Of a stretch of DNA of 64,000 bases, positions 32,252-56,669 are shown piece after piece. Within the stretch, counting starts at the first letter, position 1. Each line of letters begins with the position of its first letter. The position numbers and the translations under genes were made by a program. This DNA comes from Catellatospora methionotrophica. GTDB taxonomy: Bacteria; Actinomycetota; Actinomycetes; Mycobacteriales; Micromonosporaceae. The stretch is from the NCBI RefSeq assembly GCF_011297335.1, contig NZ_JAAOTJ010000006.1:1-64000 (forward strand), read 5' to 3'. The notes under the pieces were generated by a model. It ran no database searches, was not told the origin of the DNA, and was given only the letters and a program-made list of their open reading frames with translations.

Positions 32252-32261
32252 GCCGGTTCGT

Positions 32262-32299
32262 TGATCACGTCCTGGTCCGGGCGGGCCGGGACGTGATCA
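32262..32299. terminator. hairpin after ahpE
   Basis: TGATCACGTCCTGGTCC pairs with GGGCCGGGACGTGATCA (two mismatches), starting 11 bp after the ahpE stop. It separates ahpE from the tRNA gene. Confidence 0.7.
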
Positions 32300-32378
32300 T
32301 GGCGTGGCGCGTAACTCCCGCGAAGGCGGGGTCGCCCGTCAGGTACGATTCTCCGGTTCGTGTCGGCGCAAGCCGAGC

Positions 32379-32450
32379 GGGCGTGTAGCTCAGCGGGAGA
32401 GCATCCGCCTTACAAGCGGAGGGTCGCAGGTTCGAACCCTGCCACGCCCA
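32379..32450 (+). tRNA. tRNA-Val (anticodon TAC)
   Basis: 72 nt fold into a complete cloverleaf: acceptor GGGCGTG/CACGCCC, D stem GCTC/GAGC, anticodon stem TCCGC/GCGGA with loop CTTACAA, and T stem GCAGG/CCTGC with loop TTCGAAC. The discriminator is A and no CCA is encoded. Confidence 0.97.
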
Positions 32451-32455
32451 CAGTC

Positions 32456-32488
32456 CAGGAGCAGATATTTTACCTGCTCCTGCTGTTT
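32456..32488 (+). terminator. tRNA-Val terminator
   Basis: CAGGAGCAG pairs with CTGCTCCTG around 9 nt and is followed by CTGTTTTC, a classical intrinsic terminator and one of few here with a T-run. Confidence 0.8.
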
Positions 32489-32767
32489 TCTCGTGGTCCT
32501 CAGTGCGGTCAAGCTTTCGCCGCAGTTGACCGCCGCAGATCCTGAGTTGCCGCCGCTAGTTGCACGGACGTTGCACGCAAGATCGACATAGACCTGATCG
32601 GCGTGGAGGAACCCGCGGTTTAGGAAGGGCATGTCCTCGGCGACTCGGTATGGCGTCGACCTGCGTGGACATGCTCCGCCGAACTGTGGCCAACCAAGAT
32701 CATTCCGTAAATGTTCCGCAGAATTCTCGCTGCCGGTTCAGCGACCCGCGTACCTGGTGGCCAGGTG
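32489..32767. other. lower-GC stretch after tRNA-Val, no gene recognised
   Basis: No reading frame here has a recognisable family or codon bias. It contains a direct repeat GTTGCACG at 32559-32566 and 32570-32577. Decayed mobile DNA next to the tRNA is likely but not shown. Confidence 0.4.
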
Positions 32768-33322
32768 TTACCACTCGAAGATCTTCCATTCCCGTCGCGG
32801 AATCCAGCTTTCGCTGGTATCCCAGCAGCGGTCAGCCCATGCCGCCGCAACCAGCACAGGTCGGCTCAGCACAACGTCGCCAGCTCGTTGAGCCCGCAGC
32901 ACCAACCCGAGCTGTGGCGAGCACGGATCGGCGCACTGCGAGTATCGCAACTCCATACCCTGCGTCATGAGGTAGGCCGTGAACTCATCCTCCAGGCGTG
33001 AGGGCGTCTGCCCCACCAGGCGTATCCCTTCATGGATTACCTGTGGGCCACGAAGTGCGTTAACCGCAATGGCCGCCAGCCCGGTCGACTTGTCGTAGTA
33101 GGCGGTAACCGCTGGCCCAGGGGAGTCCCTGTCGGTGAAATCCGTCCAATCTTCGCGCTCCGCGGCGCTTTGCCAACTGGCGACGCTGAAGAGGCCATGC
33201 ATCGCCGCCTCGGCCTGGTTGTGCGTCATGCCGAACTCCAACGGGCCGACACGTTCGAAAGGCGTAAACGACCAAGTAGGTCGTTGCGCTTCCGTCAGGA
33301 TGGCCCAAACCTCCGTCGCCAT
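32768..33322 (-). CDS. hypothetical protein with GPLEFGM motif
   Basis: 184 residues, no signal peptide or membrane helix. The pattern FERVGPLEFGMTHNQAEAAM is seen in small actinobacterial proteins of unknown function, some encoded beside toxin or immunity genes; that link is only a recollection. The second half has IHEGIRLVGQTPSRLEDEF and a Trp-rich end (WIPRREWKIFEW). The ATG has GGAGGGAAGT directly upstream. GC content and codon use are clearly lower than in neighbours, suggesting transfer. It is divergent from the leucine-rich-repeat gene across 165 bp. Confidence 0.6.
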   Translation of the reverse strand: MATEVWAILTEAQRPTWSFTPFERVGPLEFGMTHNQAEAAMHGLFSVASWQSAAEREDWTDFTDRDSPGPAVTAYYDKSTGLAAIAVNALRGPQVIHEGIRLVGQTPSRLEDEFTAYLMTQGMELRYSQCADPCSPQLGLVLRAQRAGDVVLSRPVLVAAAWADRCWDTSESWIPRREWKIFEW

Positions 33323-33487
33323 ACTTCCCTCCGATGGAAGTGCCATACCTCGCCAGGCTGCGGAGGCATGGTAACGGCCGGAGCGGGCTGCCCCTGCTGC
33401 TGTCGGCGGCTGAGAGCCACGATGAACTGGTGAGGCCCGGCGGCAGCGTGACCCTAAAAACGCAGCAAGCCGCGTTAGGTTGTCGCT

Positions 33488-34486
33488 GTGGAACGCGACA
33501 TGACAAATGTGACGGTCGGCGGCCTGCTGAAGGCGTCCGGGGTCGTGGAGGTCGGCTCGCCACTTGATGTCGCCGCAGTCAGACAAGATCTACCGGCAGC
33601 CCGCTTGATCCAATTCAGCGATCCTCTGACGGATGACGAGTTCAGGACGCTGGGAGAGCTGACGCGGAGCTCTCCCGAGGTCGAACTGCGGGCTTACAGC
33701 GTCTACGAGCCGGTGACCCTCGACTTCCTCCGCCACTTCCCCCATCTGCGCCGCCTGAGCTTGGACCAACACTGCCTCACCGACGTCTCGGCGTTGAACG
33801 AACTGCTGCCTGATCTCCAATCACTCGAACTCGGCGAGACGTACCGGGCGCTCGATCTGCGCCCGCTCCGGCTGCGTGGGCTGCGCCGGCTGGGAGTGAC
33901 AGGACATCGAAGCGGACTCGCCGACCTGGTCGACGGCAATCCGGGTCTTCGGTCGTTGTCGCTGCGAGGACTCCCAGTGGATCAACTACTGGGCGACGTG
34001 GAGCTGCCGAAGCTTGAAGAGCTGAACCTGAGACTCGGCTCGATCAATGAGCTGAGCTGGGTGTGCCGATTCCAGAGCCTCAGACAACTCATGCTCTGGA
34101 GGGTACGCGGGGTTGCCGAACTTAGTGCGCTCGCGCGGCTGCCAGAACTCAGATGGCTCTGGCTGGACACCCTCAAAGCAGTGGAACGACTGCCGGACCT
34201 CTCGGCCTCAAGAAACCTGGTCCGAGTCGATCTCGAAAATCTGTCCAGCATGCGCACGGAGGATGCGCTGGCGGGCCTTGCTCGGGCAGAAGGACTGGAA
34301 GAGCTTGGCCTATACCAAGGCCGTATACCGGTGACGGCGCTCAACGCGCTGGTGGGGCATCCGCGCCTGAAGCGCATCGTGCTCGGGCTTGGCAGTGAGC
34401 GCCGTAATCGGGAGGCTTCGACTGTCATAGACCTGCCGAGCCCGATGTCGGTCTACGCGTATGCGCAGCGGAACGCCGTCTACTGA
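33488..34486 (+). CDS. leucine-rich-repeat-like protein
   Basis: 332 residues with many LRR-like units of about 22-25 residues (LRRLSLDQHCLTDVSALNELLPDL, LRSLSLRGLPVDQLLGDVELPKLEELNLRLGSINELSWVC, LRQLMLWRVRGVAELSALARLPELRWLWLD). There is no signal peptide or membrane helix, so it is a cytosolic protein-binding solenoid. Such proteins occur as free-standing genes on actinobacterial islands, and an immunity or defence partner role is possible but not shown. A TAGGTT hexamer 6 nt before the GTG supports that start; an in-frame ATG lies 12 nt later. GC content is visibly low. The stop is 26 bp before the orphan tRNA-Tyr fragment. Confidence 0.65.
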   Translation: MERDMTNVTVGGLLKASGVVEVGSPLDVAAVRQDLPAARLIQFSDPLTDDEFRTLGELTRSSPEVELRAYSVYEPVTLDFLRHFPHLRRLSLDQHCLTDVSALNELLPDLQSLELGETYRALDLRPLRLRGLRRLGVTGHRSGLADLVDGNPGLRSLSLRGLPVDQLLGDVELPKLEELNLRLGSINELSWVCRFQSLRQLMLWRVRGVAELSALARLPELRWLWLDTLKAVERLPDLSASRNLVRVDLENLSSMRTEDALAGLARAEGLEELGLYQGRIPVTALNALVGHPRLKRIVLGLGSERRNREASTVIDLPSPMSVYAYAQRNAVY

Positions 34487-34512
34487 AGCCGCTGCTACGG
34501 TTCGGCGGCGAT

Positions 34513-34564
34513 CTGTAAATCCGTCGCGAAAGCTTCAGAGGTTCGAATCCTCTACCCGCCACCA
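34513..34564 (+). pseudogene. 3' half of a tRNA-Tyr gene, likely integration-site (att) scar
   Basis: The sequence runs from CTGTAAAT, the tyrosine anticodon loop (GTA), through a long variable arm to the T arm (AGAGG TTCGAAT CCTCT), acceptor strand ACCCGCC and an encoded ACCA. The 5' half (acceptor GGCGGGT, D arm, 5' anticodon stem) is missing: upstream sequence belongs to the LRR gene and its 3' end. This is the product left when an element integrates into a tRNA 3' end. The intact tRNA-Tyr is not in this window. Confidence 0.8.
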
Positions 34565-34571
34565 CCAGCAC

Positions 34572-34616
34572 AAACGCGGCTCTGACCATAAGACCGGTCG
34601 GGGCCGCGTTTCGTTT
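34572..34616 (+). terminator. terminator downstream of the tRNA-Tyr fragment
   Basis: AAACGCGGC pairs with GCCGCGTTT, followed by CGTTTG. It was probably the terminator of the original tRNA-Tyr gene and remains attached to the 3' half. About 175 bp without a gene follow before cutA. Confidence 0.7.
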
Positions 34617-34792
34617 GGGGGCCAGGTGTGTCCGGCTGAGTCCGGCCGTCTACGGCGGGTGCTGGGGAACATAGGGGGGAACACGCTAGCCGCGCGTGTC
34701 CCTGGTTTTAAAGATCAGGTGGCACCTAGTTCCCCGTCTGCCGTCGGCCCGCACCCGGAGATCATGAAGGCTTCGCCCGGGTCGAACGGCGC

Positions 34793-35116
34793 TTACGCCG
34801 TCTTGACGGCAGTTTGTGCCCACGCGATGCAGGCAGGTGCGGCCGCTGTCACGGAAACGGCGGTGATCTGAGGGTTCTGCCAGGGATGGTGTGCGGCGAG
34901 GTACCTCTCGACCTCCGGGTACCGGTCCTCCGTCGTGATGAACACGGCCTGCCATTCCTGGCCGGTGCCATACTCCCCGAGATGCCAGAACACCGATGTC
35001 ACCGGTCCGACGACCTGTGCGGATGCGGCCAGTCTGGCCTGCACCACCGCGCCTGCGAGGGCGACCGCGTCGTCGTGGTGTTCCGTTGCCGTGGTCACCT
35101 GAATCAGCCCAGTCAT
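34793..35116 (-). CDS. cutA: CutA1-like divalent-cation tolerance protein
   Basis: 107 residues, the full CutA1 domain. It begins IQVTTATEHHDDAVALAGAVVQARLAASAQVVGPVTSVFWH and ends with AVSVTAAAPACIAWAQTAV. CutA1 proteins are small trimeric ferredoxin-like folds in the cytosol, linked to copper tolerance and possibly signalling, with no settled activity. The glutamine in GEYGTGQEWQAVF and the ITTEDRYPEVERYL helix match the family. It has an ATG start without a strong ribosome site. It lies right of the tRNA-Tyr scar and its base composition is moderate. Confidence 0.85.
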   Translation of the reverse strand: MTGLIQVTTATEHHDDAVALAGAVVQARLAASAQVVGPVTSVFWHLGEYGTGQEWQAVFITTEDRYPEVERYLAAHHPWQNPQITAVSVTAAAPACIAWAQTAVKTA

Positions 35117-35619
35117 GCCGACAGCTTCTCATCGGAGCTGTGCCCAGCTGATGCCCCAAGTCCGGTGCAGAACAGGTCGCGGCTTTGGGACCGTTCCACG
35201 ACGCGGTGACGGAGTCGTGAAGCCGGCGCGCCGCGCTGTCAGCTATCACGGCCGGACAGGTCCGGCCGCCTGGGGCGGTTCACCGGGCCTGAGCAGTGCT
35301 TGCCCGGACGGGGTGACGGCATCCGTGCCGAAGACCGACCGGAGGCGGTGCAGTTCGGCTTCGGTGCCGATGGCGGCACGGTGTTCGGGCGCTCGATGTA
35401 GTTGCGGACGGCTGATGCGAGCCAGGCGTAGTTCACGCCGAAGCCCTGGACGACGGTCTCCGTTCGGGGACGGCAATTCGGTGGCCCGAGCACGGTGAGG
35501 CGTACACCCTTTCGTGTCGGCGCAGCCGAGCGGGCCACAGTGATCCACTGTGGGGTTGGCGCCCCGGTCGAAGAGGATCCGCTTAACGGTCGCCGAACGT
35601 AGATCCCGGCCCCGACGGG
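35117..35619. other. 503-bp gap with possible ankyrin-like remnant
   Basis: No intact gene is convincing. On the minus strand near 35530-35610 the frame reads ATVKRILFDRGANPTVDH, which resembles one ankyrin repeat (LLLDRGADPTV), but it soon loses any pattern. This may be the wreck of an ankyrin-repeat gene; the evidence is one repeat only. Confidence 0.3.
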
Positions 35620-36450
35620 TCAGCGGCGCGCGGCGGCGATCAGCGCCAAAGCGTCCGGTCCCTCCACCGCGAATCGCCACAGATGATCGAGCGCGCGGCC
35701 GTACGCCGCCGACTCATCCTCCGAGCAGACCAGCTCCGACGTGATCGTCTCTACTACGGCCGTGGAGTCGTACAGCTGGAAGCTGTTCTGCGGCGTGATC
35801 GGCAGCAGTGCGGAGAACGGCAGGATCCCGAACCGTACGTGCGGCAGGTCGACCGCGCTCGCCAACCGGTCCAGCTGCAGCCGCGTCACATCCGGCGGGC
35901 ACAGCCGCCAGTGCAGCACCGGCTCCGCGAGCAGGAACGTGAACCGCTTGCTGGTGTCGTACAGGTGCCGTTGCCGCTCCAACCGGGCCGCTACTGCGGC
36001 GTCGACGTCGTCGACGGCCAGGCCGTGCAGGTCCACCATTTCGCCGATGATCCTGCGGGCGTACGCGGCAGTCTGTAGCAGGCCCGGCACGTACACCGTC
36101 TCGAAGTGGGCGACGGTCGCGGACTGCGCGACCAGGTCGTTGTAGGACCGCTGCACCGGTGCGACACCCGCGCGCATCCGGCGGTGCCAGTCGCGGTGTA
36201 CGTCGCGTACCTCTGACAGCAGTTCGCTGAGTTCGTCTGCGGCGGCTGGTGCACCGCAGGCTGCCGCCCATGCGCCGAGGTCGGCGAGCGACGGGGCTTG
36301 CTTGCCGTGCTCCAGGCGCGACACCTTCGATGCCGCCCAGTTGAGTGCGGCGGCGAGCTCCTTGCCGGACAGCCCGGCTGCCTCGCGCAGCGAACGTAGG
36401 CGGTCGGCGAGGCCACCGGGCTGGATCAGCAGGTCTTCAATCGTGGGCAT
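35620..36450 (-). CDS. XRE-family regulator with DUF5753 domain
   Basis: 276 residues. An XRE helix-turn-helix (about 14-70, LRSLREAAGLSGKELAAALNWAASKVSRLEHGKQAPS) is followed by a DUF5753 domain (about 95-270) with YNDLVAQSATVAHFETVYVPGLLQTAAYA. Actinomycete genomes carry dozens of these, and the best-studied relatives (BldB/WhiJ-type networks) affect development. It is the last gene of a three-gene minus-strand unit, 11 bp after the DUF6879 gene. It probably controls the small genes around it. The tandem repeats at 37327 in the divergent promoter are candidate sites. Confidence 0.85.
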   Translation of the reverse strand: MPTIEDLLIQPGGLADRLRSLREAAGLSGKELAAALNWAASKVSRLEHGKQAPSLADLGAWAAACGAPAAADELSELLSEVRDVHRDWHRRMRAGVAPVQRSYNDLVAQSATVAHFETVYVPGLLQTAAYARRIIGEMVDLHGLAVDDVDAAVAARLERQRHLYDTSKRFTFLLAEPVLHWRLCPPDVTRLQLDRLASAVDLPHVRFGILPFSALLPITPQNSFQLYDSTAVVETITSELVCSEDESAAYGRALDHLWRFAVEGPDALALIAAARR

Positions 36451-38793: not shown

Positions 38794-39402
38794 TCAGCAG
38801 AAGTCGGTGCCGCCTTCGTAGCTGGACTTCAGGTAGGCGCCGTCACCGGCGATCATCGCGAAGACCTTCTTGTTCTGGTCGAGGTCGAACAGGATGCCCC
38901 GCCCGTTGGCGGTGGTGACCAGGTACGCCGCGCCGCCGCTGAGTTCCTTGCCGAGGTTGCCGTAGATCGACGACACGGCGGCCAGGGTCATGCCGAGCCG
39001 GGCCCCGGACGGCGTGGGGATCGTCTTGGACCGGTTGACCGCGATGTACAGCTCTCCGTCGGGGCGGAACTGCAGCTGGATGTCCTTCCAGACGCCGGTG
39101 CCGGTGGCGGTGGTGTTCACCGGGCAGGTCTCCGCGCCGGTGGCGACCTTGTCGAGCAGGCCGCCGGCCTTGAGCGCCTCCAGGTTCGCGCCGATCAGGT
39201 ACGGGCCCGCGCCGTCGACCGTGAAGTTGATCGCGGGGGAGGGCGACGGCGACGCCGCCGGGCTCACCGCCGCGCTGGGAGAGGCCTCGGCGGACACGCT
39301 GGGCTGCGCGCTCGGCGAGGGGGTGGTCGGGGCGGGATCGTCGTCGCCGCAACCGGCGAGGACGGTGAGGGCGAGCAGGGCAAGGCAGGCACGACGCAGC
39401 AT
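38794..39402 (-). CDS. lipoprotein of unknown function
   Basis: 202 residues. The signal peptide has the lipobox LAGC (Cys18 or so), followed by a long Ser/Pro/Ala linker of about 45 residues and a compact domain. The domain begins INFTVDGAGPYLIGANLEALKAGG and contains the LGMTLAAVSSIYG pattern seen in small secreted actinobacterial proteins. It is probably anchored outside the membrane. It lies downstream of the large operon ending at 39492, separated by an 89-bp gap with a small CACGGCC/GGCCGTG hairpin. Confidence 0.7.
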   Translation of the reverse strand: MLRRACLALLALTVLAGCGDDDPAPTTPSPSAQPSVSAEASPSAAVSPAASPSPSPAINFTVDGAGPYLIGANLEALKAGGLLDKVATGAETCPVNTTATGTGVWKDIQLQFRPDGELYIAVNRSKTIPTPSGARLGMTLAAVSSIYGNLGKELSGGAAYLVTTANGRGILFDLDQNKKVFAMIAGDGAYLKSSYEGGTDFC

Positions 39403-39491
39403 GTGCTGAGTGGAGCCGATCAGCGTTTGTTGCGCTATCAGCAAACCGACTCACGTTGCGCACCTCACGGCCGACGGCCGTGCCGGACCGG

Positions 39492-41138
39492 TCAGCGGGC
39501 GTACGCGGACAGGAAGTGGTCGCGGAAGGTGTCCATGCGCCAGACGGGGGCGGTGGGGCCGGGTTTGAGGCCGTCCTGCCAGGACCAGGAGGTGATCCGG
39601 GCGAGGATGGCGGGGTCGCGGGCGACGATCGTGATCGGCGCGTCGCGGCTGGCGCGCTGGCCGGAGACCGACGGGGAGGGCTGGTGGTCGCCGAGGAACA
39701 CCAGCACGAGGTCGTCGCCGCCGTAGGTCTCCACGTAGGAGACGAGCGTGTCGACGGAGTACGTGATGGCGTTGCGGTAGGCGTGGCGTACCCGGTCGCG
39801 GTCGCGTTTCTCGACGATCTCGGCGGGGTCGTCGGATCCGGCGGCGGTGTCGTACACGGAGCCGTCGCCGACCGCGTCCCAGGGCAGCGTCTTCGGCACC
39901 GGCTCCCAGGGGGAGTGGCTGGAGATGAGTGGGATGACCGCCATCACGGGCAGGTGGCCGGGGGCGCGTTCGCGCTGCTGGAAGGTGTGCAGGGTGTACT
40001 GGTCGGGCATGGTCGCGAAGCTGTAGCGCGGGCCTTTGTAGCCGAGGTCGGGGGCGGTGTAGAGCTGGTCGTAGCCGTAGACGGCGCCTTCGGGCCACGC
40101 GGTGGTGGTGGCGGGCATGACGGCGACGGTGCGCCACCCGGCGCGGCCGAACGCGGCGGGCAGGGTGAACCGGTCGCTGGCCATCATGGTGGTGTAGCGC
40201 TGCTGGTTGTCGATCCATACGCCGGACAGGAGGGTGGACTGGGCCAGCCAGCTGCCGCCGCCGGTGGTCGGTGAGGTGAGCCAGGCGCTGCGGGCGGTGT
40301 ACCCGGCGGCGCGCAGCCGGTCGTTGCCCGCGTCGAGGGCGGGGCCGACCTGCGCGGACAGTTCGGGGTCGTCGATCGCGACGCGGCCGTAGCTCTCCAC
40401 GAACGCGACGACGACGTCCTTGCCGCGCAGTGCGGTGAGCAGGTCTCCGGCGGGCGTGGCCCGGTAGGCGTCGGTGGACAGCAGCGCGCCGAACACCTGC
40501 TCGTCCTGCGCGCCCGTACGCACCTGGATCACCTGGTCGTAGGAGTCGCGGGCGGCGACCGGAACGCCGGGCACGAGCTGGACCCCGGCCAGGGCGCAGG
40601 CGGCCCACGCGGCGGTGAGCGTGGCGACGGTGCGGGTGGTGGCGGTGCGGTGGCGCAGGGCGAGGCGGGTGGCGTGCCGGTAGGCGGCGACGACGAGCAG
40701 CAGCAGGCCCAGGGCGAGCAGCAGCGCGCCCGCGACGGCGGCCCACATGGCGGCGGGGCCGCTGGACTGGCGCAGGTAGTCGGCTCCGGCGACGAGGAAC
40801 GGCCAGTCGAGCACGGGGTGGAACGGGCGGTCGAGCACCGCCGAGAAGCCCAGGCTGATGATCTTCAGGATGGTCAGCACGCCGAGCAGGACCCCGGCCA
40901 CCGGGACGGCGACGCGCCGGAACCGGGTCGGCAGCAGCACGGCCAGCGCGACGGCGGCCAGGCCGTCGATCGGGATGCGCAGCAACGCCGCCGGGGTCAG
41001 CCGCCCCAGCTCGTTCGGCACGACGAGCAGCGCCAGCAGGAGCACCACCGCCGCCCCGAGCAGCACCTTTCGTATCCTGCGCGGAGGCGCGGGCGCCGGG
41101 ACGTCGGTTGCCTCGCTGACCCGTGGTGCGTCGAGCAT
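39492..41138 (-). CDS. membrane-anchored sulfatase / LtaS-like phosphotransferase
   Basis: 548 residues. Four or five membrane helices (about 25-190) are followed by an extracytoplasmic alkaline-phosphatase-fold domain. Visible motifs are DVVVAFVESYG (first metal site), SPTTGGGSWLAQSTLLSG (candidate nucleophile Thr/Ser), PLISSHSPW and VFLGDHQP (late metal Asp-His). The layout matches lipoteichoic-acid-synthase-like and phosphoethanolamine-transferase-like proteins that move phospho-groups onto surface glycolipids. The start overlaps the ribA stop (TGATG). As last gene of the pterin/lipid operon, it could finish an exported product. Confidence 0.75.
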   Translation of the reverse strand: MLDAPRVSEATDVPAPAPPRRIRKVLLGAAVVLLLALLVVPNELGRLTPAALLRIPIDGLAAVALAVLLPTRFRRVAVPVAGVLLGVLTILKIISLGFSAVLDRPFHPVLDWPFLVAGADYLRQSSGPAAMWAAVAGALLLALGLLLLVVAAYRHATRLALRHRTATTRTVATLTAAWAACALAGVQLVPGVPVAARDSYDQVIQVRTGAQDEQVFGALLSTDAYRATPAGDLLTALRGKDVVVAFVESYGRVAIDDPELSAQVGPALDAGNDRLRAAGYTARSAWLTSPTTGGGSWLAQSTLLSGVWIDNQQRYTTMMASDRFTLPAAFGRAGWRTVAVMPATTTAWPEGAVYGYDQLYTAPDLGYKGPRYSFATMPDQYTLHTFQQRERAPGHLPVMAVIPLISSHSPWEPVPKTLPWDAVGDGSVYDTAAGSDDPAEIVEKRDRDRVRHAYRNAITYSVDTLVSYVETYGGDDLVLVFLGDHQPSPSVSGQRASRDAPITIVARDPAILARITSWSWQDGLKPGPTAPVWRMDTFRDHFLSAYAR

Positions 41139-41791
41139 CAGCGGGCCGGGCGGAGCTGGAGGGTGTGCGCGGCGTGGCGGGCCTTGGTGGCCAGGTAGCC
41201 GGCATTGGCTGGGGACAGGTGCACGGCGGTGGGCACGCGTTCGGTCACCGCGACCCCCAGGCGGGTGAGCTGTTCGGCCTTGTCGGGGTTGTTGGACAGC
41301 AGCGCGACGCGGGACACGTCGAGGGCGTGCAGCATCTGCGCGGCGACCGTGTAGTCGCGGGCGTCCTCGTCGTGGCCGAGGGCGACGTTGGCCTCGTAGG
41401 TGTCCAGGCCGGTGTCCTGTAGCGCATAGGCCTCCATCTTGGCGTACAGGCCGATGCCGCGTCCCTCCTGCCGCAGGTACAGCAGGAATCCTCCGGCGAT
41501 CGTGATGCGCTCGGCGGCTTCGCGCAGCTGCGGGCCGCAGTCGCAGCGCTGGCTGCCGAACACGTCGCCGGTCAGGCACTCGCTGTGCGGGCGCACCAGC
41601 GGCACGGGCAGGTCGTCGGCGTCGCGGCGCAGGGTCGTGGCGTGGTCGCCGAGGCCGATGGCCAGGTGCTCGCGGCCGTCGACGAGCCCGGTGAACGTGA
41701 CGACCCGCGCTGTGGTGCTGTAGCCGTCGGGGAACCGCAGCGGGACCTGGACCTGCGTACGCACTGTCGCCGGGGGCAGCATGGCGGTCAC
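41138..41791 (-). CDS. ribA: GTP cyclohydrolase II
   Basis: 217 residues, a stand-alone GCH II without the DHBP-synthase domain found in the usual actinobacterial RibBA. Zinc ligands are the three Cys of CLTGDVFGSQRCDCG. The catalytic stretch is LRQEGRGIGLYAKMEAYALQD and the late loop is LLSNNPDKAEQL. The Tyr of EAYALQ aligns with E. coli RibA Tyr105, a position reported to differ in FAPy-forming homologues, so canonical GCH II chemistry is expected. The GTG overlaps the upstream stop in GTGA; an ATG 9 nt later is possible. A second RibA in an operon with envelope genes suggests a pathway other than bulk riboflavin. Confidence 0.9.
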   Translation of the reverse strand: MTAMLPPATVRTQVQVPLRFPDGYSTTARVVTFTGLVDGREHLAIGLGDHATTLRRDADDLPVPLVRPHSECLTGDVFGSQRCDCGPQLREAAERITIAGGFLLYLRQEGRGIGLYAKMEAYALQDTGLDTYEANVALGHDEDARDYTVAAQMLHALDVSRVALLSNNPDKAEQLTRLGVAVTERVPTAVHLSPANAGYLATKARHAAHTLQLRPAR

Positions 41792-42495
41792 CGGCCTTCG
41801 GAGTCGGCGCTGTCGAACCGGGGCGACAGCGCGTAGCGCAGCAGCACGACGTCGCCGATCTGCTGGACGTCGGCGAGTTTCGCGCGCCGTCCGGGGTTGA
41901 AGGGGAAGTCGCCGTCGTTGACGAAGCGGCTGGCGCGGGAGTCGCCGACGAAGAACGGCGCGACGACCAGGTGCAGCTCGTCGGCGAGGTCGGCGGTCAG
42001 GAACTGGGTGTGGATGGTGCCGCCGCCCTCGACCATCAGGCGGCATACGCCGCGCTCGTACAGGTCCTCGGTGACGTGGCGCAGGTCGACGGGCAGGCCG
42101 CCGTCGACGACGGTCGCGACGCCGTCGAGCAGGGTGCGGGCGTGCGCGACGCGCGGGGTGGCGCAGTAGACGATCTTCTCGGCGTCGCCGGCGGTGAAGA
42201 ACGCGGCCGTGGGGTCGAGTTTGGCCTTCTCGGTGACGGTCACCTTGATCGGGCACTCGGGCAGGCCCTGGGCCGTGCGGGCGTCGCGGCGGGCCTGCGT
42301 GCGGACCATCAGGCGCGGGTTGTCGCGGCGCACCGTACGCGCGCCGACCAGGATCGCGTCGCAGGATGCGCGGACCGCGTCGACCCGGTCGAAGTCGGCG
42401 GCGTTGGACAGCAGCAGCCGCTCGTCGGTCGCGCCGTCGAGGTAGCCGTCGATCGACATGCTGCAGCTGAGCAGGACGTACGGGCGCTCACGCAT
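41788..42495 (-). CDS. RibD C-terminal (dihydrofolate-reductase-fold) reductase
   Basis: 235 residues, the RibD_C domain alone with no deaminase. Family pieces are SMSIDGYLDGA, CDAILVGARTVRRDNPRL, and the NADPH-binding LMVEGGGTIHTQFL. Stand-alone members reduce the ribosyl side chain of a pyrimidine or similar heterocycle. Together with the adjacent GTP cyclohydrolase II it could make a reduced ribitylamino-pyrimidine-like compound. It is coupled to both neighbours by short overlaps. Confidence 0.88.
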   Translation of the reverse strand: MRERPYVLLSCSMSIDGYLDGATDERLLLSNAADFDRVDAVRASCDAILVGARTVRRDNPRLMVRTQARRDARTAQGLPECPIKVTVTEKAKLDPTAAFFTAGDAEKIVYCATPRVAHARTLLDGVATVVDGGLPVDLRHVTEDLYERGVCRLMVEGGGTIHTQFLTADLADELHLVVAPFFVGDSRASRFVNDGDFPFNPGRRAKLADVQQIGDVVLLRYALSPRFDSADSEGR

Positions 42496-43447
42496 GCTTG
42501 CTCCTGGTCCGTGCCAGCAGGACGGCGGCGCCGGGCAGCGCGGCGACCAAGCCCAGCACGCCGTACGTGACGGCCGCCGCGACGCCCTGCGTGGAGGTCA
42601 TGCCGGCGGCGGCGAACGCCCAGGCGGCGACGCCCTCGCGGGGTCCCCAGCCGGCGATGTTCAGCGGCAGCGCCATGGCCAGCAGGGCCAGCTGCGTCAG
42701 CGGCACCAGCAGGGTCACCGGCGCGTCCGAGCCCGCGGTGCGGGCCGCGATGACGAACATGATCAGCTGTCCGGCCACGACGACCGCCGAGGCGAATCCG
42801 ATGCCGACCCAGCGCCGCCGGGTGAGCAGCACCTCACGCACATCGGCGTACGCGGTGCGCAGCGCGGCCGCCCAGCGGGCCGACCGGCCACGGGCCAGGG
42901 CCCGGACGCCGAGCGCGACGGCCAGCGCGGTCGCCGCGACGACGGCGACGACCAGCGGCATGCGGTCGCGGACCGGGGACGGGAGCACCAGCAGCATCAG
43001 CAGCGAGGCGGCGATCTGCACGGTCAGCCCGATGGTGCGCTCCAGCACGACGGCCCGCACGGCCAGGCGCACGTCGCTGATGTCGAGGCCGTGGCGCACC
43101 GCGCGGTGCACGTCGCCGACGACCCCGCCGGGCAGCGTCGTGTTGAGGAACAGCGAGCGGTAGTACGCCTTGACGGCCTGGAGCAGCGGCAGGCGCACGC
43201 CGAGGCCCTCGGCGACGAGGCTCCACCGCCAGGCGCAGCACACGGTGCTCAGCGCGCCGAGGCCGAGCGCGGCCAGCAGCGCGGGCCGGTCGACCAGGCG
43301 GACGCCGTCGAGGAACGGCCCTGTGCCGACCTGCCACACCAGCAGCGCGAGGATGAGCACTCCGGCGGCGGCGCGCGCCCAGGCCCCGAGGCGTCCCGCG
43401 GCACGGCCCGAAGGCCGCGGGCGGACCCCTGTCACGGCACGGTGCAA
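42488..43447 (-). CDS. UPF0104/YbhN (lysylphosphatidylglycerol-synthase-like) membrane protein
   Basis: 319 residues with about eight membrane helices. The family loop SLFLNTTLPGGVVGDVHRAVRHG is followed by AVVLERTIGL. The second half has LPLNIAGWGPREGVAAWAF. This family covers the flippase-like domain of MprF and many stand-alone membrane proteins thought to move lipid-linked molecules; no synthase domain is attached. The TTG start has GGAGG 5 nt upstream. The 79-bp gap to the glycosyltransferase contains a weak TCCAGAAA/TTTCTAGA hairpin. Its end overlaps the start of the reductase gene by 8 bp. Confidence 0.85.
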   Translation of the reverse strand: MHRAVTGVRPRPSGRAAGRLGAWARAAAGVLILALLVWQVGTGPFLDGVRLVDRPALLAALGLGALSTVCCAWRWSLVAEGLGVRLPLLQAVKAYYRSLFLNTTLPGGVVGDVHRAVRHGLDISDVRLAVRAVVLERTIGLTVQIAASLLMLLVLPSPVRDRMPLVVAVVAATALAVALGVRALARGRSARWAAALRTAYADVREVLLTRRRWVGIGFASAVVVAGQLIMFVIAARTAGSDAPVTLLVPLTQLALLAMALPLNIAGWGPREGVAAWAFAAAGMTSTQGVAAAVTYGVLGLVAALPGAAVLLARTRSKHA

Positions 43448-43526
43448 CGCGACCTCCTGTCCAGAAACTTCTTCCTTTCTAGAGGCATCGTCCCCGCGTG
43501 TCTGTGGATTTATACACACAGCGCCG

Positions 43527-44576
43527 TCATCGGGCCAGCGGGGAGAGCGCCGCGCCGACCTGATCGGCGGTGTGGGCCCAGCCGGTGAGCCCGCCGCGCC
43601 GCGCCTGGGCCGCCTGCCGGAGCCGTTCGCGCAGCCCGGGGTCGGTGAGCCAGCGGCGCAGCGCGTCGGCGAGCGCCGCGCTGTCGGGCGGGACGAGCAG
43701 GCCCGGCACGGTGCCGTCCGGGGCCGCGCCGAGCGCCTCCGGCAGGCCCTGCACGTCGGTGGCCAGCACGGGGATGCCCCGAGCCAGCGCTTCGGTGACG
43801 ACCATGCCATAGCTCTCCCCGTGCGAGGGCAGCACGAGCAGGTCCGCCGCGTCGTATGCCGCGTCCAGCCCGCCTCCCGTGCGCACGCCCGCGAAGGTGA
43901 TCCGGTCGGCGACCGGGTGGGCCCGCAGGCGTGCCGCGTACGCCGGGTCGCGCTCCGGCGAGCCGACGAGCACGCAGCTCCAGGGTAACCCGGTGAGCGT
44001 GTCCAGGGCGTCGAGAAGCAGGTCGTGGCCCTTGTGTGGGGCGAGCGCGGCCACGCAGAGCAGCCGCGTCCCGGCCGCTGTGGCGGGGGCCGGGGGAGCG
44101 GGGTCGACGCCGGGCGGGGCCGCGTGGACGTGGGCGGGCGGCAGGGCGTACGCCTCGATGGCCCGCCGGCGGCACCAGTGGCTGGTGGTGACGACGGCGG
44201 CCGCGCCCCGCAGCACCCGGGCCTCACCGGGCCGCAGGTCCGGGTCGGCGTCACCGAACAGCATGTGCGCGAGCACGACGGGCCGCAGCCGGGGCGTGCA
44301 CGCGGCGAGCACGTCCGGCGCGGCGACGGCCACGAGCCCGTCGAGCAGCACGACCGCGCCGTCGGGCAGCGTCGCCAGCACCCCGGCGAGCCGGTCCAGG
44401 TCGGTCGCCGTGGGATACGGCCACGCGCCGGGCACCGGGTGTTCGTGCACGGTCCAGCCGGACGCGGCCAGGCCGTCGCAGACCCGCCGGTCGTAGACGT
44501 TGCCGCCGCTCGGCGCGGCCGGATCGTCCACGCCGCCCGGCAGGACGACGTGGACGGCGTTCACCGGCCGCCCCAT
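43527..44576 (-). CDS. GT4-family glycosyltransferase
   Basis: 349 residues with the two-domain GT-B fold. The N-terminal VHVVLPGGVDDPAAPSGGNVYDRRV loop and the C-terminal donor-binding LLVLPSHGESYGMVVTEALARGIPVLATDVQGLPE (with the EX7E motif) are clear. LCVAALAPHKGHDLLLDAL starts the second domain. It would transfer a sugar from a nucleotide sugar onto a lipid or small-molecule acceptor at the inner face of the membrane; donor and acceptor are unknown. The start may instead be the GTG at 44564, which has GGGGCGG before it. It lies between the PTPS-like and UPF0104 genes in the operon. Confidence 0.85.
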   Translation of the reverse strand: MGRPVNAVHVVLPGGVDDPAAPSGGNVYDRRVCDGLAASGWTVHEHPVPGAWPYPTATDLDRLAGVLATLPDGAVVLLDGLVAVAAPDVLAACTPRLRPVVLAHMLFGDADPDLRPGEARVLRGAAAVVTTSHWCRRRAIEAYALPPAHVHAAPPGVDPAPPAPATAAGTRLLCVAALAPHKGHDLLLDALDTLTGLPWSCVLVGSPERDPAYAARLRAHPVADRITFAGVRTGGGLDAAYDAADLLVLPSHGESYGMVVTEALARGIPVLATDVQGLPEALGAAPDGTVPGLLVPPDSAALADALRRWLTDPGLRERLRQAAQARRGGLTGWAHTADQVGAALSPLAR

Positions 44577-44640
44577 GCGGATCTTGTGCGCTCGGGGCTG
44601 CGGGGGCGACCCGAATCGCACGAGATCCGGATTCGCGTGC

Positions 44641-45039
44641 TCACAGGGGCCGTTCGTAGCTCGCCCAGGCGATGTGCGACTCGTGCAGCGTCACCGCGAT
44701 GCCGGACAGGCCGCGCGCGTTGTCGCCGAACGCGCCCGCGTGCACGCGGGCCGCCAGCCGGTCCGCGATGACCTGGGCCAGCTTCTCGGTCGTGGTGTTG
44801 ACGCCCGCGAACGCCGGGTCGTCGTCGAGGTTGCGCAGGTTCAGCGCGCCGACGATCGTGTTCAGCTCCTGCGACGCGGCGGCGATGTCGACCACGATGT
44901 CGTCGGCGTCGAGTGCGGCGCGCTTGAACGTCGCGTCGACGACGAACGTCGCGCCGTGCAGGCGCTGCGCGGGGCCGAAGACCTCGCCCCGGAAACTGTG
45001 GGCGATCATCATGTGGTCGCGGACCGTCACGCTGAACAT
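44641..45039 (-). CDS. PTPS/QueD-fold protein lacking catalytic residues
   Basis: 132 residues, clearly of the 6-pyruvoyltetrahydropterin synthase/QueD family ([59 protein letters not shown]). Key residues differ. The HGH zinc pair reads HGA. The catalytic Cys four residues before it is Ala. The Asp-His dyad expected before the second LN reads Asn-Leu. Canonical pterin synthesis is therefore unlikely: the protein may bind a pterin-like ligand, form a scaffold, or do different chemistry. GGAGAG precedes the ATG, and a GTG 6 nt earlier overlaps the upstream stop. Confidence 0.8.
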
Positions 45040-45041
45040 GG

Positions 45042-46022
45042 TCACTCTCCGTCGTAGCTGATGGTGTGGCACAGGGCGGGCAGGGTGCCGTCGGCGAGGC
45101 CGGACAGCACCTCGGGTAGGCGGTCGAAGCGGGACTCGCCGGACAGCAGCGCGTCGAAGGCCGGGTCGCGCAGCAGGTCCAGGGCGATGGCGAGCCGGTC
45201 GGTGTAGGAGCGGCGCGCGGCGCGGGCCGGGGAGACCGTGCCGACCTGGCTGGCACGGATGCTCAGCCGTCCGGAGTGGAAGGCGCCGCCCAGGGACAGG
45301 CTCACCGCGCGGTCGCCGTACCAGCTCAGCTCGACGACGGTGCCCTCCGGGGCGAGCAGGTCCAGGGCGCGTTGCAGCCCGGCGGCGCTGGCGGAGGCGT
45401 GGAAGACCAGGTCGCAGCCGCCCTCGGCGGCCTCGGGCGAGGTGAACGCGACGCCGAGCGCCGCCGCGACCGCAGCCCGCTGCGGGTCGAGGTCGACCAG
45501 TCGCACCGAGACTCCGGGGAAGCGGGCCAGCAGCGCCGCGACGCAGCAGCCGACCATGCCCGCGCCCAGCACCGCGATCCGGTCGCCGACCAGCGGCGCG
45601 CCGTCCCACAGGGCGTTGACCGCGGTCTCCACGGTGCCCGCGAGCACGGCGCGGCGGGCGGGCACGCCGTCGGGGACGGGCACCACGGCCGAGGCCGGGA
45701 CGACGAAGCGGGTCTGGTGCGGGTACAGGCAGAACACGGTGCGGCCGAGCAGCTCCGGTGGGCCCTGCTCGACGACGCCGACGTTGAGGTAGCCGTACTT
45801 CACCGGGCCGGGGAAGTCGCCCTCCTGGAACGGGGCACGCATCACGGCGTACTGGTTCGGCGGCACCTCGCCCCGGAAGACCAGCGTCTCGGTGCCCCGG
45901 CTCACGCCCGTGTGGACGGTGCGCACCAGCACCTCACCGGGGCCCGGAGCAGGCAGTGCGACACGGCGGATCTCGCCCGCGCCGGGCGAGGCGGTCCAGA
46001 AGGCACGCGCGTAGGATGCCAT
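45042..46022 (-). CDS. MDR-superfamily dehydrogenase, zinc-site variant
   Basis: 326 residues of the medium-chain dehydrogenase fold. The N-terminal [20 protein letters not shown] replaces the zinc-binding Cys of classical alcohol dehydrogenases, as in BchC-like relatives. The Rossmann motif is [18 protein letters not shown], with an acidic strand end (VDLDPQRA) that favours NAD(H). It would oxidise or reduce a hydroxyl on a biosynthetic intermediate. GAGGAGAGGAAGCCG before the ATG is one of the strongest ribosome sites here. It is the first gene of the seven-gene operon and shares a 43-bp gap with the divergent phosphatidyltransferase. Confidence 0.82.
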
Positions 46023-46065
46023 CGGCTTCCTCTCCTCGATCACGGTCGAACCTAACGGAGGTACG

Positions 46066-46827
46066 GTGCCGCCGGTGAGACCGGGCCCGGTGATCGGGCT
46101 GTTCCTCCAGTTCGCCATGCTCGCGCTGCTGTCGGCGGCGGTCGGCCTCGGACACGCCGGATGGGCGGCCGGGATCGCGTACGCCGTCGGATCGGGCGCG
46201 CTGCTCACCCGTGCCATGCACACTGCGGGACTGGTCGCGTTCGGACCCGCAGACCTGGTCACGCAGACCCGCGCGGCGCTCGTCGGCTGCGTCACGGCGC
46301 TGACCGCCGTCTCGTTCACCGGTGACGTGCCGGTGCCGGTGCTGGTCGGGATCACGGTCGTGGCGCTGGTGCTCGACGCCGTCGACGGCAAGGTCGCCCG
46401 GAGCACCGCCACCGCCTCGGCGTTCGGCGCGCGGTTCGACATGGAGGTCGACGCGTTCCTGATCCTGGTGCTGAGCTGCTACGTCGCCCCGTCGGCCGGG
46501 TGGTGGGTGCTGGCGATCGGCGCGATGCGCTACGTCTACGTCGTGGCGACCTGGCTGCTCCCGTGGCTGCGCGCCCCGCTGTTCACGCGGTACTGGCGCA
46601 AGGTGGTGGCCGCGATCCAGGGCATCGTCCTGGTGGCCGCCGCCGCGGACGTGCTGCCCCGGCCACTGGTCGCCGTCGCGCTCGCGGGCGCGCTCGCCCT
46701 GCTCACCGAGTCCTTCGGCCGCGACGTGGTCTACCTCTGGCGACGCCGCGCCGGAGCGCTACCGCAGGCGCGCGTAGACGTCGCCGGATCGGCCGAGGGG
46801 ACGGAAGCGCTGGTCCAGAAGCTGTAG
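46066..46827 (+). CDS. CDP-alcohol phosphatidyltransferase family enzyme
   Basis: 253 residues with about six membrane helices. The diagnostic motif is complete: DAVDGKVARSTATASAFGARFDMEVD, that is D-x2-DG-x2-AR-x8-G-x3-D-x3-D. It would replace CMP of a CDP-alcohol with a hydroxyl acceptor, making a phospholipid-like product; the acceptor is unknown. A GGAGG site precedes the GTG. The 43-bp divergent gap to the MDR gene means shared control with the operon. Its last 69 bp overlap the convergent FkbM gene. Confidence 0.87.
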   Translation: MPPVRPGPVIGLFLQFAMLALLSAAVGLGHAGWAAGIAYAVGSGALLTRAMHTAGLVAFGPADLVTQTRAALVGCVTALTAVSFTGDVPVPVLVGITVVALVLDAVDGKVARSTATASAFGARFDMEVDAFLILVLSCYVAPSAGWWVLAIGAMRYVYVVATWLLPWLRAPLFTRYWRKVVAAIQGIVLVAAAADVLPRPLVAVALAGALALLTESFGRDVVYLWRRRAGALPQARVDVAGSAEGTEALVQKL

Positions 46828-47514
46828 CAGGTCGGCTGCGGTCAGCCACCGCTCGGCCGCGAAGCGCATGGTCTCGACGGGGGCGTAGTTGTACTCGTAC
46901 CCGCCCGCGCGTGCGCCGAGCTGCTCCACGAGGTCCAGCACGGTGAGCGCGGCGTCGTGGGCGAACGGCAGGTACTCGAAGGACAGGGCGCGCAGCGGCC
47001 GGGACAGGCCCCGCAGCACGTCCGCTTCGAAACCCTCGACGTCGATCTTGCAGAAGGCCGGTTCGCCGTGCGTCGCGATGAGATCGTCCAGGGTGACCAC
47101 CTCGACCTCGACCGCGCGGTCCCAGCGGACGTCGGCGAACCGGTCGTCGGCGGCGGTCACCGACGCGATCCACTCGTGCGACAGCGAGGACACCGTCGGC
47201 GTCGCCGACGACAGCGCCAGCGACGCCGTACCCGGCCGTGCCCCGACCGCCGTGGGCAGGATGACCACCCCCGGATCGCGCCCGAAGAACAGCCGCAGGG
47301 CCCGCAGGCAGTCCGGCTGCGGCTCGATCGCCACCACCCGCGCCCCGAGCCGCCGCCACGGCCGCACCCGGCTCCCCACGTGCGCCCCCACATCGAACGC
47401 CAGGTCCCCGGCCCCCAGGAACTGCCCGTAGAACCGCCGCATCCGCCGATGCCGCCCCGGAATCCCGTGATACATCACGAGAGACCGCCCCATCCCCCAA
47501 ACCCGCTTGAGCAT
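46759..47514 (-). CDS. FkbM-family SAM-dependent methyltransferase
   Basis: 251 residues. The SAM motif is LAFDVGAHVGSRVRPWRRLGARVVAIEPQPDCLRAL, and the FkbM signature is VTLDDLIATHGEPAFCKIDVEGFEADVLRGL. Family members O-methylate sugars or natural products; the target here is unknown. A TAAGGT hexamer 5 nt before the ATG suggests a leaderless start. Its 3' end overlaps the convergent phosphatidyltransferase gene by 69 bp, so the two transcripts are antisense at their ends. Confidence 0.85.
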   Translation of the reverse strand: MLKRVWGMGRSLVMYHGIPGRHRRMRRFYGQFLGAGDLAFDVGAHVGSRVRPWRRLGARVVAIEPQPDCLRALRLFFGRDPGVVILPTAVGARPGTASLALSSATPTVSSLSHEWIASVTAADDRFADVRWDRAVEVEVVTLDDLIATHGEPAFCKIDVEGFEADVLRGLSRPLRALSFEYLPFAHDAALTVLDLVEQLGARAGGYEYNYAPVETMRFAAERWLTAADLLQLLDQRFRPLGRSGDVYARLR

Positions 47515-47667: not shown

Positions 47668-48600
47668 GTGATCGAGTTCCCCGACCGGATGCGGCGGACC
47701 GCGCTGAGCAGAGGGGCGGCGGGCCGGGAGTGGCTGGCGGCGCTGCCGGAACGGCTCGCGTACCTGTGCGAGGCCTGGTCGCTGAGGCCTGGGGCGGTGC
47801 TGGACGGCGGGTCGGCGGCGCTGGTGGTGCTGGCGCGCAGGGGCGACGGCACCGATGCGGTGCTGCGGCTCGGGCCGCCTGGGGACGGGTTCGCGGGGCA
47901 GGTGCGCACCATCGGGGTGGCAGGCGGGCACGGGTACGTCCGGCTGTACGCCCACGATCTCGAACGTGACGCCGCGCTGCTGGAAGCGCTCGGCCCGGCG
48001 CTGGGGACCACCGCGCGCTCGGCCGAGCACGCGCTCGACGTGCTGGCCGCGACGCTGCGGCAGGCGTGGCTCGTGCCACGGCCGCCGGACGCGGCCGTGC
48101 CGCCGGGGACGGACAAGGCCAGCACGCTCGCCAAGCTGATCATCGAGCTGTGGCCGCAGACCGGCCGTCCCTGCCCGGCCGAGGTTGCCGAGCGTGCCGT
48201 CGGGTACGCCCGCCGCCGCGCGGCCGCCTTCGACCTGGACGGCAGCGTGGTCTGCCACGGTGATCCGCACCCGGACAACGCGCTCGCGGTGCTGACGCCC
48301 CGGCCCGGCGCGGAGTCGGGGTATGTCTTCGTCGACCCGGACGGCTTCCTCTGCGACCCGGCGTACGACCTGGGGGTCGCGGTGCGCGGCTGGACGGATG
48401 AGGTGCTCGCGGCGGCGGACCCGGTCGGGCTGGTACGGGACTACTGCGCACGGCTGGCGGCGGCGACCGGAGTGGACGAGCAGGCGATCTGGGAGTGGGG
48501 CTTCACTGAGCGCGTCTCGTCGGGCCTCTACATGATCCGGTACGGCGCACCGGCCGAGGGGCGCGAGTACCTCGTGTCGGCCGCCCGGCTGCTCGGCTGA
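47668..48600 (+). CDS. APH(6)-like (aminoglycoside/hydroxyurea) phosphotransferase
   Basis: 310 residues resembling streptomycin 6-kinases. The catalytic loop VVCHGDPHPDNALAVL and the metal motif VFVDPDGFLCDPAYDLGVAVRGW are intact. The N-terminal WSLRPGAVLDGGSAALVVLARRGDGTDAVLRL is the lobe that contacts ATP. It may phosphorylate an aminoglycoside or an unrelated small hydroxyl compound; resistance is not certain from sequence. The start is a GTG without a clear ribosome site. It is monocistronic, bounded by repeat-family hairpins on both sides. Confidence 0.8.
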   Translation: MIEFPDRMRRTALSRGAAGREWLAALPERLAYLCEAWSLRPGAVLDGGSAALVVLARRGDGTDAVLRLGPPGDGFAGQVRTIGVAGGHGYVRLYAHDLERDAALLEALGPALGTTARSAEHALDVLAATLRQAWLVPRPPDAAVPPGTDKASTLAKLIIELWPQTGRPCPAEVAERAVGYARRRAAAFDLDGSVVCHGDPHPDNALAVLTPRPGAESGYVFVDPDGFLCDPAYDLGVAVRGWTDEVLAAADPVGLVRDYCARLAAATGVDEQAIWEWGFTERVSSGLYMIRYGAPAEGREYLVSAARLLG

Positions 48601-56605: not shown

Positions 56606-56669
56606 CCCGATACCGTAATCAAGGTCACGCGGCGCGGTGTAGCGCGACCGCATCACATCCTCGATCGGG

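Follow-up and report, generated by a model that had tools for sequence, protein, structure and literature searches.

A conserved actinomycete gene cluster around a PTPS-IV protein in Catellatospora methionotrophica and its possible GTP-derived pathway

What is made by a gene cluster in which enzymes of the riboflavin families stand next to a glycosyltransferase and several membrane proteins? The question is raised by a locus in the first 64,000 nucleotides of contig NZ_JAAOTJ010000006.1 (assembly GCF_011297335.1) of Catellatospora methionotrophica; this whole stretch is referred to here as the window. Seven minus-strand genes and one divergent gene (Table 1) encode a BchC-like medium-chain dehydrogenase (MDR), a T-fold protein of the PTPS-IV subfamily, a GT4-family glycosyltransferase, a UPF0104 flippase-like protein, a RibD_C-type reductase, GTP cyclohydrolase II (GCHII), an LtaS-like protein and a CDP-alcohol phosphatidyltransferase. 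The cluster appears to turn GTP into a sugar-decorated, possibly membrane-linked compound apart from vitamin B2. A probability of about one half is given to the reading that it is a member of an actinomycete PTPS-IV cluster, the counterpart of SCO6650-SCO6655 of Streptomyces coelicolor, and that it encodes a GTP-derived pathway distinct from that of riboflavin, along the path proposed below. We infer a product derived from a diaminopyrimidinone or pterin, glycosylated and processed at the membrane, with a putative structure and lipid link.

The host genome contains three GCHII genes and 16 RibD_C matches (15 above cut-off), and PF01242 (PTPS) has a single match in it, the window gene. That the window genes are the sole riboflavin copies of the strain was ruled out by a separate operon on another contig (C11), which carries a ribD-type gene (362 aa), a riboflavin-synthase-like gene, ribBA (412 aa) and a lumazine-synthase-like gene (146 aa); the roles in this operon were read from sequence, and the GCHII and RibD_C assignments come from family searches. 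By Pfam the eight genes of the window include no deaminase, lumazine synthase or riboflavin synthase, all of which are read as such on C11. The third host GCHII gene lies on contig C54 (L201, 7266-7883, minus strand), where no other riboflavin gene was recognised by eye in 15 kb.

Of 394 Actinomycetia genomes, 57 hold a match to the window PTPS protein at E <= 1e-15, as do 67 of 150 Streptomyces-type genomes (genus group g28, in which the nearest named locus by DNA is Streptomyces for 57 of 59 loci and Actinacidiphila for 2); among the contigs of named genomes at least 567 relatives were confirmed. For the comparison of neighbourhoods the best 80 of these at least 567, closest to the query (46 of them titled as Streptomyces), were combined with 57 loci from the Actinomycetia genomes (one match in each of 56 of the 57 genomes, the window's own match left aside, and both matches in G009) and with the window itself. 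About 20 kb was read around each of the resulting 138 loci, less near contig ends; the loci are related by phylogeny rather than independent, and some species may occur in both collections. In these PTPS-IV-selected loci the order MDR-PTPS-GT4, with MDR directly upstream and GT4 directly downstream, is found in 134 of 138; taken singly, MDR lies directly 5' of the PTPS-IV gene in 135 loci and GT4 directly 3' in 137. Of the four exceptions, L094 lies at a contig edge, L081 and L091 have the MDR displaced, and L106 gave no GT4 match. It is clear that the grouping goes beyond chance, since a core order kept in 134 of 138 loci rules out chance juxtaposition.

Further genes accompany this core. Counted over the 118 loci with at least 7 kb of sequence downstream and at least 5 kb upstream, these are UPF0104 (113 loci), the CDP-alcohol gene (112), an S-adenosylmethionine (SAM) methyltransferase (109), GCHII (104), a creatininase-family gene (85) and RibD_C (38). 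In Catellatospora sichuanensis (L100) all eight genes stand in identical order with 80-95% protein identity; the flanking genes are also syntenic there, so that the cluster edges are not marked by that comparison alone. The first-pass annotation had held that the set is not that of the ordinary riboflavin pathway, and this is borne out by the conserved GTP-based set and the separate operon on C11. Neither of the two outcomes that it had named as weakening the idea, families that co-occur only here and genes that are the sole riboflavin copies, is what was found, since the gene-neighbourhood comparison that it proposed finds the families recurring in many actinomycete loci and the C11 operon exists. 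One contig titled as a Burkholderiaceae metagenome-assembled genome (L118) also holds an actinomycete-type cluster, with a PTPS protein 76% identical and with CDP-alcohol and LtaS in one frame; the Burkholderiaceae assignment is probably a binning error.

The protein at the centre of the core carries FGPAQ at residues 21-25, invariant among 18 aligned members, which is the PTPS-IV signature in the available passages of PMC5445326. It matches S. coelicolor SCO6650 (PDB 3d7j) over its full length (E 9e-70), its model (pLDDT 95) has a TM score of 0.97 against 3d7j, and it is 95% identical to the C. sichuanensis protein; NCBIfam QueD gives 36 bits, below the cut-off of 89. The proteins of the 138 loci were aligned and numbered after E. 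coli QueD. The catalytic residue set of PTPS and QueD, a Cys, an Asp-His pair and three zinc His, is incomplete in PTPS-IV. Zinc ligands His16 and His31 are retained in 137 of 138 proteins (one gap each), and the third, His33, is Ala in 136 (one Val, one gap). Catalytic Cys27 is Ala in 137 (one gap), Asp70 is Asn in 103, and the His71 position is Tyr in 130 and Leu in the window protein. The pterin-anchoring Glu110 is Glu in all 138. Since this Glu is kept while the catalytic residues and one zinc ligand are lost, it is most likely that the fold still binds a 2-amino-4-oxo ring without performing the PTPS or QueD reaction. The 2008 paper on the SCO6650 structure reportedly came to a similar conclusion (no zinc, no triad, pterin site kept). 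No published PTPS-IV activity was found in the open-licence literature, despite the crystal structure.

The supply of the core from GTP takes two forms. Formate-releasing GCHII is recognised by three zinc Cys and by Tyr105 (E. coli numbering); the window enzyme has both the three Cys (CCC) and the Tyr, and in NCBIfam it reaches 256 bits against PRK00393 (cut-off 148) and 188 bits against TIGR00505 ribA, under the cut-off of 206. Of the 113 cluster GCHII found, 23 carry Tyr at the Tyr105 position, and the other 90 carry Met, His, Leu or Gln there. RibD_C accompanies every one of the 23 Tyr-type enzymes, never together with the creatininase-family gene (Pfam Creatininase). That gene is present in 89 of the 90 non-Tyr loci, the exception being L082; a divergent RibD_C (53-71 bits) is additionally present in 13 of these 90. 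The divergent RibD_C of L047, missed by the profile search, was counted via tblastn. An apparent Arg at the Tyr105 column in L044, L088, L089 and L092 was discarded, these being RibD_C matches and not GCHII, and was replaced by a profile search. The S. coelicolor paralogues SCO6655 and SCO2687 are said to have been studied in the Bandarian laboratory, where SCO6655 was reportedly found to release the formamide, a Tyr-to-Met change at the Tyr105 position being said to make it halt there; the Met-type GCHII of the Streptomyces cluster sits where SCO6655 should be by numbering. A creatininase-annotated protein of S. meliloti, BrbF, deformylates the same formamide according to passages of PMC9478397. 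On our reading of the genes, both entry modules would deliver a diaminopyrimidinone; as far as our searches of the literature show, an entry module in two forms is new.

The window RibD_C gives 142 bits against NCBIfam rib_reduct_arch, below the cut-off of 186; this nearest model describes a reductase acting before deamination. When 41 genomes were searched for it, four, all in g28, had no homologue at E <= 1e-15, and their loci (L047, L050, L054 and L059) are the four g28 loci of the 138 with a divergent RibD_C inside the cluster. Across g28, 54 of 67 cluster-positive genomes have a close homologue (E <= 1e-40), against 18 of the 83 that lack the cluster (odds ratio 15, Fisher p 3e-13, with no phylogeny correction). 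Loci were fetched for all 13 cluster-positive g28 genomes without a close homologue and for 27 of the 54 with one, as hand-picked controls. The prediction of an in-cluster (cis) RibD_C, run on g28, held in all nine of the 13 homologue-less genomes that were readable, each carrying a divergent in-cluster RibD_C; the other four loci end 0.6-2.8 kb downstream, and the 13 genomes may be one clade. No cis RibD_C is present in 26 of the 27 controls, and the 27th (L242) has its sole close homologue directly beside the PTPS gene. In this locus (G475:C154) RibD_C lies directly 3' of PTPS-IV, and the 12 kb read show neither GCHII nor creatininase nor UPF0104.

In the path proposed for the cluster, the Tyr form of GCHII would open GTP and free formate to give 2,5-diamino-6-ribosylamino-pyrimidinone phosphate; in other lineages non-Tyr GCHII would go no further than the formamide and leave completion of the step to a formamidase of the creatininase family. 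The RibD-type reductase would convert the ribosyl to a ribityl group, and the 2-amino-4-oxo edge would be retained, since there is no deaminase in the set. PTPS-IV may hold this edge via its invariant Glu and, together with the BchC-like dehydrogenase, may reshape the ring or the side chain by a chemistry unlike that of PTPS and QueD. GT4 would then add a sugar, with methylation in most of the lineages read though not in that of the window, and the CDP-alcohol transferase, UPF0104 and LtaS-like proteins could attach the product to a lipid or handle it at the membrane. Computation establishes the genes, how they are conserved, both entry modules, the fusions and the riboflavin operon on C11; the reactions, their order, the product and its lipid link are all putative, those steps after the reductase being the most tentative. 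A more specific version, in which the product is a lipid-linked glycosylated diaminopyrimidinone or pterin of a new surface or signalling class, the T-fold enzyme has a new reaction and the two GTP-opening modules are lineage-specific, is considered rather unlikely.

Several observations weigh against the reading of the cluster as a GTP-derived pathway of its own. No GCHII was found in 25 of 138 loci, some of them ended by contig ends; RibD_C is present in nine of these 25 and creatininase in two. L095, L096 and L098 keep the MDR-PTPS-GT4 core, yet the 11.5-19.9 kb fetched for them show neither GCHII nor creatininase nor RibD_C, which cautions against a universal entry module. When 69 of the 113 cluster GCHII are placed on a tree, the Tyr label changes only twice, so that few independent events lie behind the module swap. 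The two creatininase-family proteins tested score 134-149 bits against MftE versus 37 bits against ArfB, all below cut-off. The LtaS-like gene, by BLAST with the window proteins, is present in 32 of 138 loci only and is thus an accessory; a count of 111 of 118 was discarded, its seed set having contained fused CDP-alcohol-LtaS proteins, and was replaced by this figure. Class-wide, a close RibD_C homologue is found in 46 of 57 PTPS-IV-positive genomes versus 50 of 337 PTPS-IV-negative ones, and in L194-L196 homologues 65-67% identical have no other cluster genes adjoining; RibD_C is therefore not specific to the cluster, since close homologues also occur in genomes lacking PTPS-IV. Furthermore, the RibD_C found elsewhere in the genome (in trans) lies near another GCHII in all five g28 loci seen (L180-L184), and the L180 copy carries a deaminase-like domain in the same protein and stands beside a Tyr-type GCHII. 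Given these neighbours and this domain, the trans RibD_C was dropped as a dedicated partner; it may serve riboflavin only, or be a shared supply at best.

LtaS enzymes are marked by a catalytic Thr, a Glu and a metal-binding Asp-His; among homologues of the LtaS-like protein E248, D484 and H485 are invariant and T291 nearly so. The protein has no NCBIfam match and no PDB sequence match; the best folds for its AlphaFold model (pLDDT 85) are Listeria LtaP and LtaS, with E 6e-11 for LtaP but a modest TM score of 0.37 (query) or 0.48 (target). The motif of CDP-alcohol phosphatidyltransferases, DG-x2-AR-x8-G-x3-D-x3-D, is intact in 126 of the 127 homologues found, that of the window included. Across the 138 loci, CDP-alcohol and LtaS share one open frame in 13, both are present separately in 19 (window included), CDP-alcohol is alone in 95 and neither is present in 11; in the fusion of L043 Pfam detects the CDP-alcohol domain only. 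The one-frame loci tie the divergent CDP-alcohol gene (46066) to the LtaS-like gene that ends the series (39492).

Other members of the set are fused as well. GCHII-RibD_C fusion proteins occur in L097 and L099, with both domains above Pfam cut-offs, and L099 has a GT4-methyltransferase fusion whose methyltransferase domain is below cut-off (23.6 vs 27) and groups by BLAST with the cluster methyltransferases. The window cluster lacks this methyltransferase family (Pfam Methyltransf_25), and a search of the host genome at E 1e-6, run without a positive control, gave no homologue either. At 46759-47442 on the minus strand the window has an FkbM-type methyltransferase gene (Pfam Methyltransf_21), convergent with the CDP-alcohol gene with a 3' overlap of about 69 bp and syntenic in C. 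sichuanensis; it might stand in for the absent methyltransferase, though it is of another family. The first-pass annotation had assigned the cluster to lipid and surface-glycan chemistry: that the membrane genes belong with the set is upheld by the 13 one-frame loci, while a lipid or surface-glycan product was not confirmed.

The alternative that survives best is a glycosylated pterin or pyrimidine, soluble and secreted, in the manner of the pterin glycosides of cyanobacteria, made by the MDR-PTPS-GT4 core with a supply from GCHII, the CDP-alcohol, UPF0104 and LtaS genes being unrelated neighbours. The core is indeed the most constant part of the loci, L095, L096 and L098 keep it with no membrane-gene homologues in the sequence read, and the scarcity of LtaS points the same way. 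However, UPF0104 and the CDP-alcohol gene are present in nearly all well-flanked loci, mostly adjoining the core, and the single open frame of CDP-alcohol and LtaS in 13 loci argues against unrelated neighbours, so that a soluble glycoside is possible but somewhat unlikely.

Alternatively, the cluster could encode a split GTP cyclohydrolase I (GCHI), an enzyme that runs through the same type of intermediate; PTPS-IV, which has the same T-fold, would carry out an Amadori rearrangement of the GCHII product and close the ring, yielding dihydroneopterin monophosphate. The ring-anchoring Glu kept in PTPS-IV is consistent with this, but the rearrangement would be blocked once a RibD-type enzyme had made the ribityl group, and a reductase gene tracks the cluster, which makes a split GCHI a long shot.

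The chances are slimmer still for a second supply of riboflavin, or of flavins for secretion, under different regulation. GCHII and RibD_C are riboflavin-pathway families, close RibD_C homologues with a deaminase occur elsewhere, and parallel riboflavin routes are argued for S. meliloti in passages of PMC9478397; yet the set is without a deaminase, lumazine synthase or riboflavin synthase, a separate operon is present on C11, and PTPS-IV, MDR and GT4 would be left unexplained. Moreover, in section 6 of PMC2853524, expression is anticorrelated with the predicted flux of the riboflavin reaction for SCO6655 (r = -0.61) and SCO2687 (-0.52); most genes of that flux table rise in stationary phase, SCO6655 and SCO2687 not being treated individually in that section. 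SCO6652, which by its numbering we infer to be the cluster methyltransferase, has log2 values of 0.8, 4.3 and 4.1 in 24, 48 and 72 h mycelium versus early mycelium in the data seen from PMC3610822. This expression pattern suits a developmental or stationary-phase product more than a vitamin.

F420 synthesis has a ribitylamino-pyrimidine precursor in common with the proposed path. A role in F420 or deazaflavin synthesis, which a passage of PMC5041015 gives, as unpublished, for archaeal PTPS-IV, is scarcely credible in actinomycetes, where CofH/FbiC and PTPS-IV dissociate both ways: among 36 hand-picked genomes CofH/FbiC is above cut-off in 19 of 20 PTPS-IV-negative and in 9 of 16 PTPS-IV-positive ones, and the role is contradicted because seven of these 16 have no CofH/FbiC above cut-off.

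Placed beside known systems, the GTP-derived pathway proposed here has both familiar and distinct parts. Compared with S. coelicolor SCO6655, the window has a Tyr-type GCHII and RibD_C in place of the creatininase-family gene. Toxoflavin biosynthesis recruits GCHII and a RibD-type enzyme for a specialised product; none of the eight genes is known to belong to the families of its N-N bond-forming part, and PTPS-IV, GT4 and membrane genes are present instead. ArfC is the reductase of the archaeal riboflavin route and is of the pre-deamination type. In passages of PMC9478397 the archaeal route, with ArfA and ArfB, and bacterial BrbF likewise have ring opening and deformylation as separate steps, whereas the window set continues with PTPS-IV, MDR and GT4, and the cluster creatininase-family proteins are below the ArfB cut-off. 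The AGeNNT analysis (PMC5445326) lists PF00925 and PF01872 as neighbours of a PTPS-IV node of 561 sequences; it has the same FGPAQ signature, and the window has both neighbours. Its available passages describe no dehydrogenase/GT4 core, membrane genes, fusions or two modules, and label PF00925 as GTP cyclohydrolase I/FolE2. PTPS-IV, its GCHII/RibD_C neighbourhood and the SCO6650 structure are already in print; no product, whole-cluster description, module swap or fusions were found in the open-licence literature, subscription papers lying mostly outside that search.

Table 1. Cluster genes and divergent gap, in window coordinates.
Feature	Position	Strand	Basis
BchC-like medium-chain dehydrogenase (MDR), without usual zinc ligands	45042..46022	-	sub-cut-off ADH_zinc_N and bchC matches
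PTPS-IV subfamily T-fold protein, FGPAQ signature	44641..45039	-	Pfam PTPS above cut-off
GT4-family glycosyltransferase	43527..44576	-	Pfam Glycos_transf_1
UPF0104 / LPG_synthase_TM flippase-like membrane protein, TTG start assumed	42488..43447	-	Pfam PF03706
RibD_C-type pyrimidine reductase, without deaminase domain	41788..42495	-	Pfam RibD_C
GTP cyclohydrolase II (GCHII), Tyr at E. coli 105 position, Cys3 zinc site intact	41138..41782	-	Pfam, NCBIfam, residues
LtaS-like polytopic membrane phosphotransferase/sulfatase-fold protein, start codon assumed	39492..41138	-	Pfam Sulfatase, AlphaFold model
CDP-alcohol phosphatidyltransferase, divergent, GTG start assumed	46066..46827	+	Pfam CDP-OH_P_transf
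Divergent intergenic gap, 43 bp, presumed promoter-bearing	46023..46065	.	sequence; no sigma-70 match

Open reading frames (ORFs) in the window were called with a custom-written caller and start codons were chosen by the analyst, least certainly for UPF0104, the LtaS-like gene and the CDP-alcohol gene. As the first-pass annotation had described, seven co-directional genes run from 46022 to 39492 with short gaps or overlaps, which depend on the choice of start codons: gaps of 2 bp (MDR-PTPS), 64 bp (PTPS-GT4) and 79 bp (GT4-UPF0104), an overlap of 8 bp (UPF0104/RibD_C), a gap of 5 bp (RibD_C-GCHII) and an overlap of 1 bp (GCHII/LtaS, TGATG). The length of the divergent gap also stands, whereas the shared promoter proposed for it is only presumed; a scan of 39300-47000, gap included, found no sigma-70-like promoter sites and no terminator-like sites. 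The families named for all eight genes hold, seven with Pfam bits above cut-off (PTPS 82.9, Glycos_transf_1 105, LPG_synthase_TM 103, RibD_C 140, GTP_cyclohydro2 186, Sulfatase 34, CDP-OH_P_transf 41) and MDR alone just below (ADH_zinc_N 29.4 vs 31.8). MDR gives 49 bits against NCBIfam bchC (cut-off 291) and weak matches to alcohol/polyol dehydrogenases in the PDB (best E 1.5e-5); SRGTE, KYGYL and PHQ motifs are conserved among the MDR proteins, and MDR, judged by the zinc-binding motif, lacks the usual zinc ligands.

Elsewhere in the window, an aminoglycoside/hydroxyurea phosphotransferase family gene (Pfam APH_6_hur, 41 bits) lies at 47668-48597 on the plus strand. The block 32001-36000 has a G+C of 0.649, the lowest among sixteen 4-kb blocks, with leucine-rich-repeat-like and helix-turn-helix-like ORFs seen by eye, and is possibly a recent acquisition. 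Two neighbouring ORFs at 55119-56653 (minus strand), each with an FNFRD-GGL stretch, look like a tandem duplication.

For the actinomycetes, the entry-module swap suggests the substrate of the pathway and the fusions suggest which of its enzymes act together. At stake are the role of a conserved T-fold protein and perhaps a new class of metabolite, directly testable in S. coelicolor; the cluster is common in soil actinomycetes, and its product is worth isolating.

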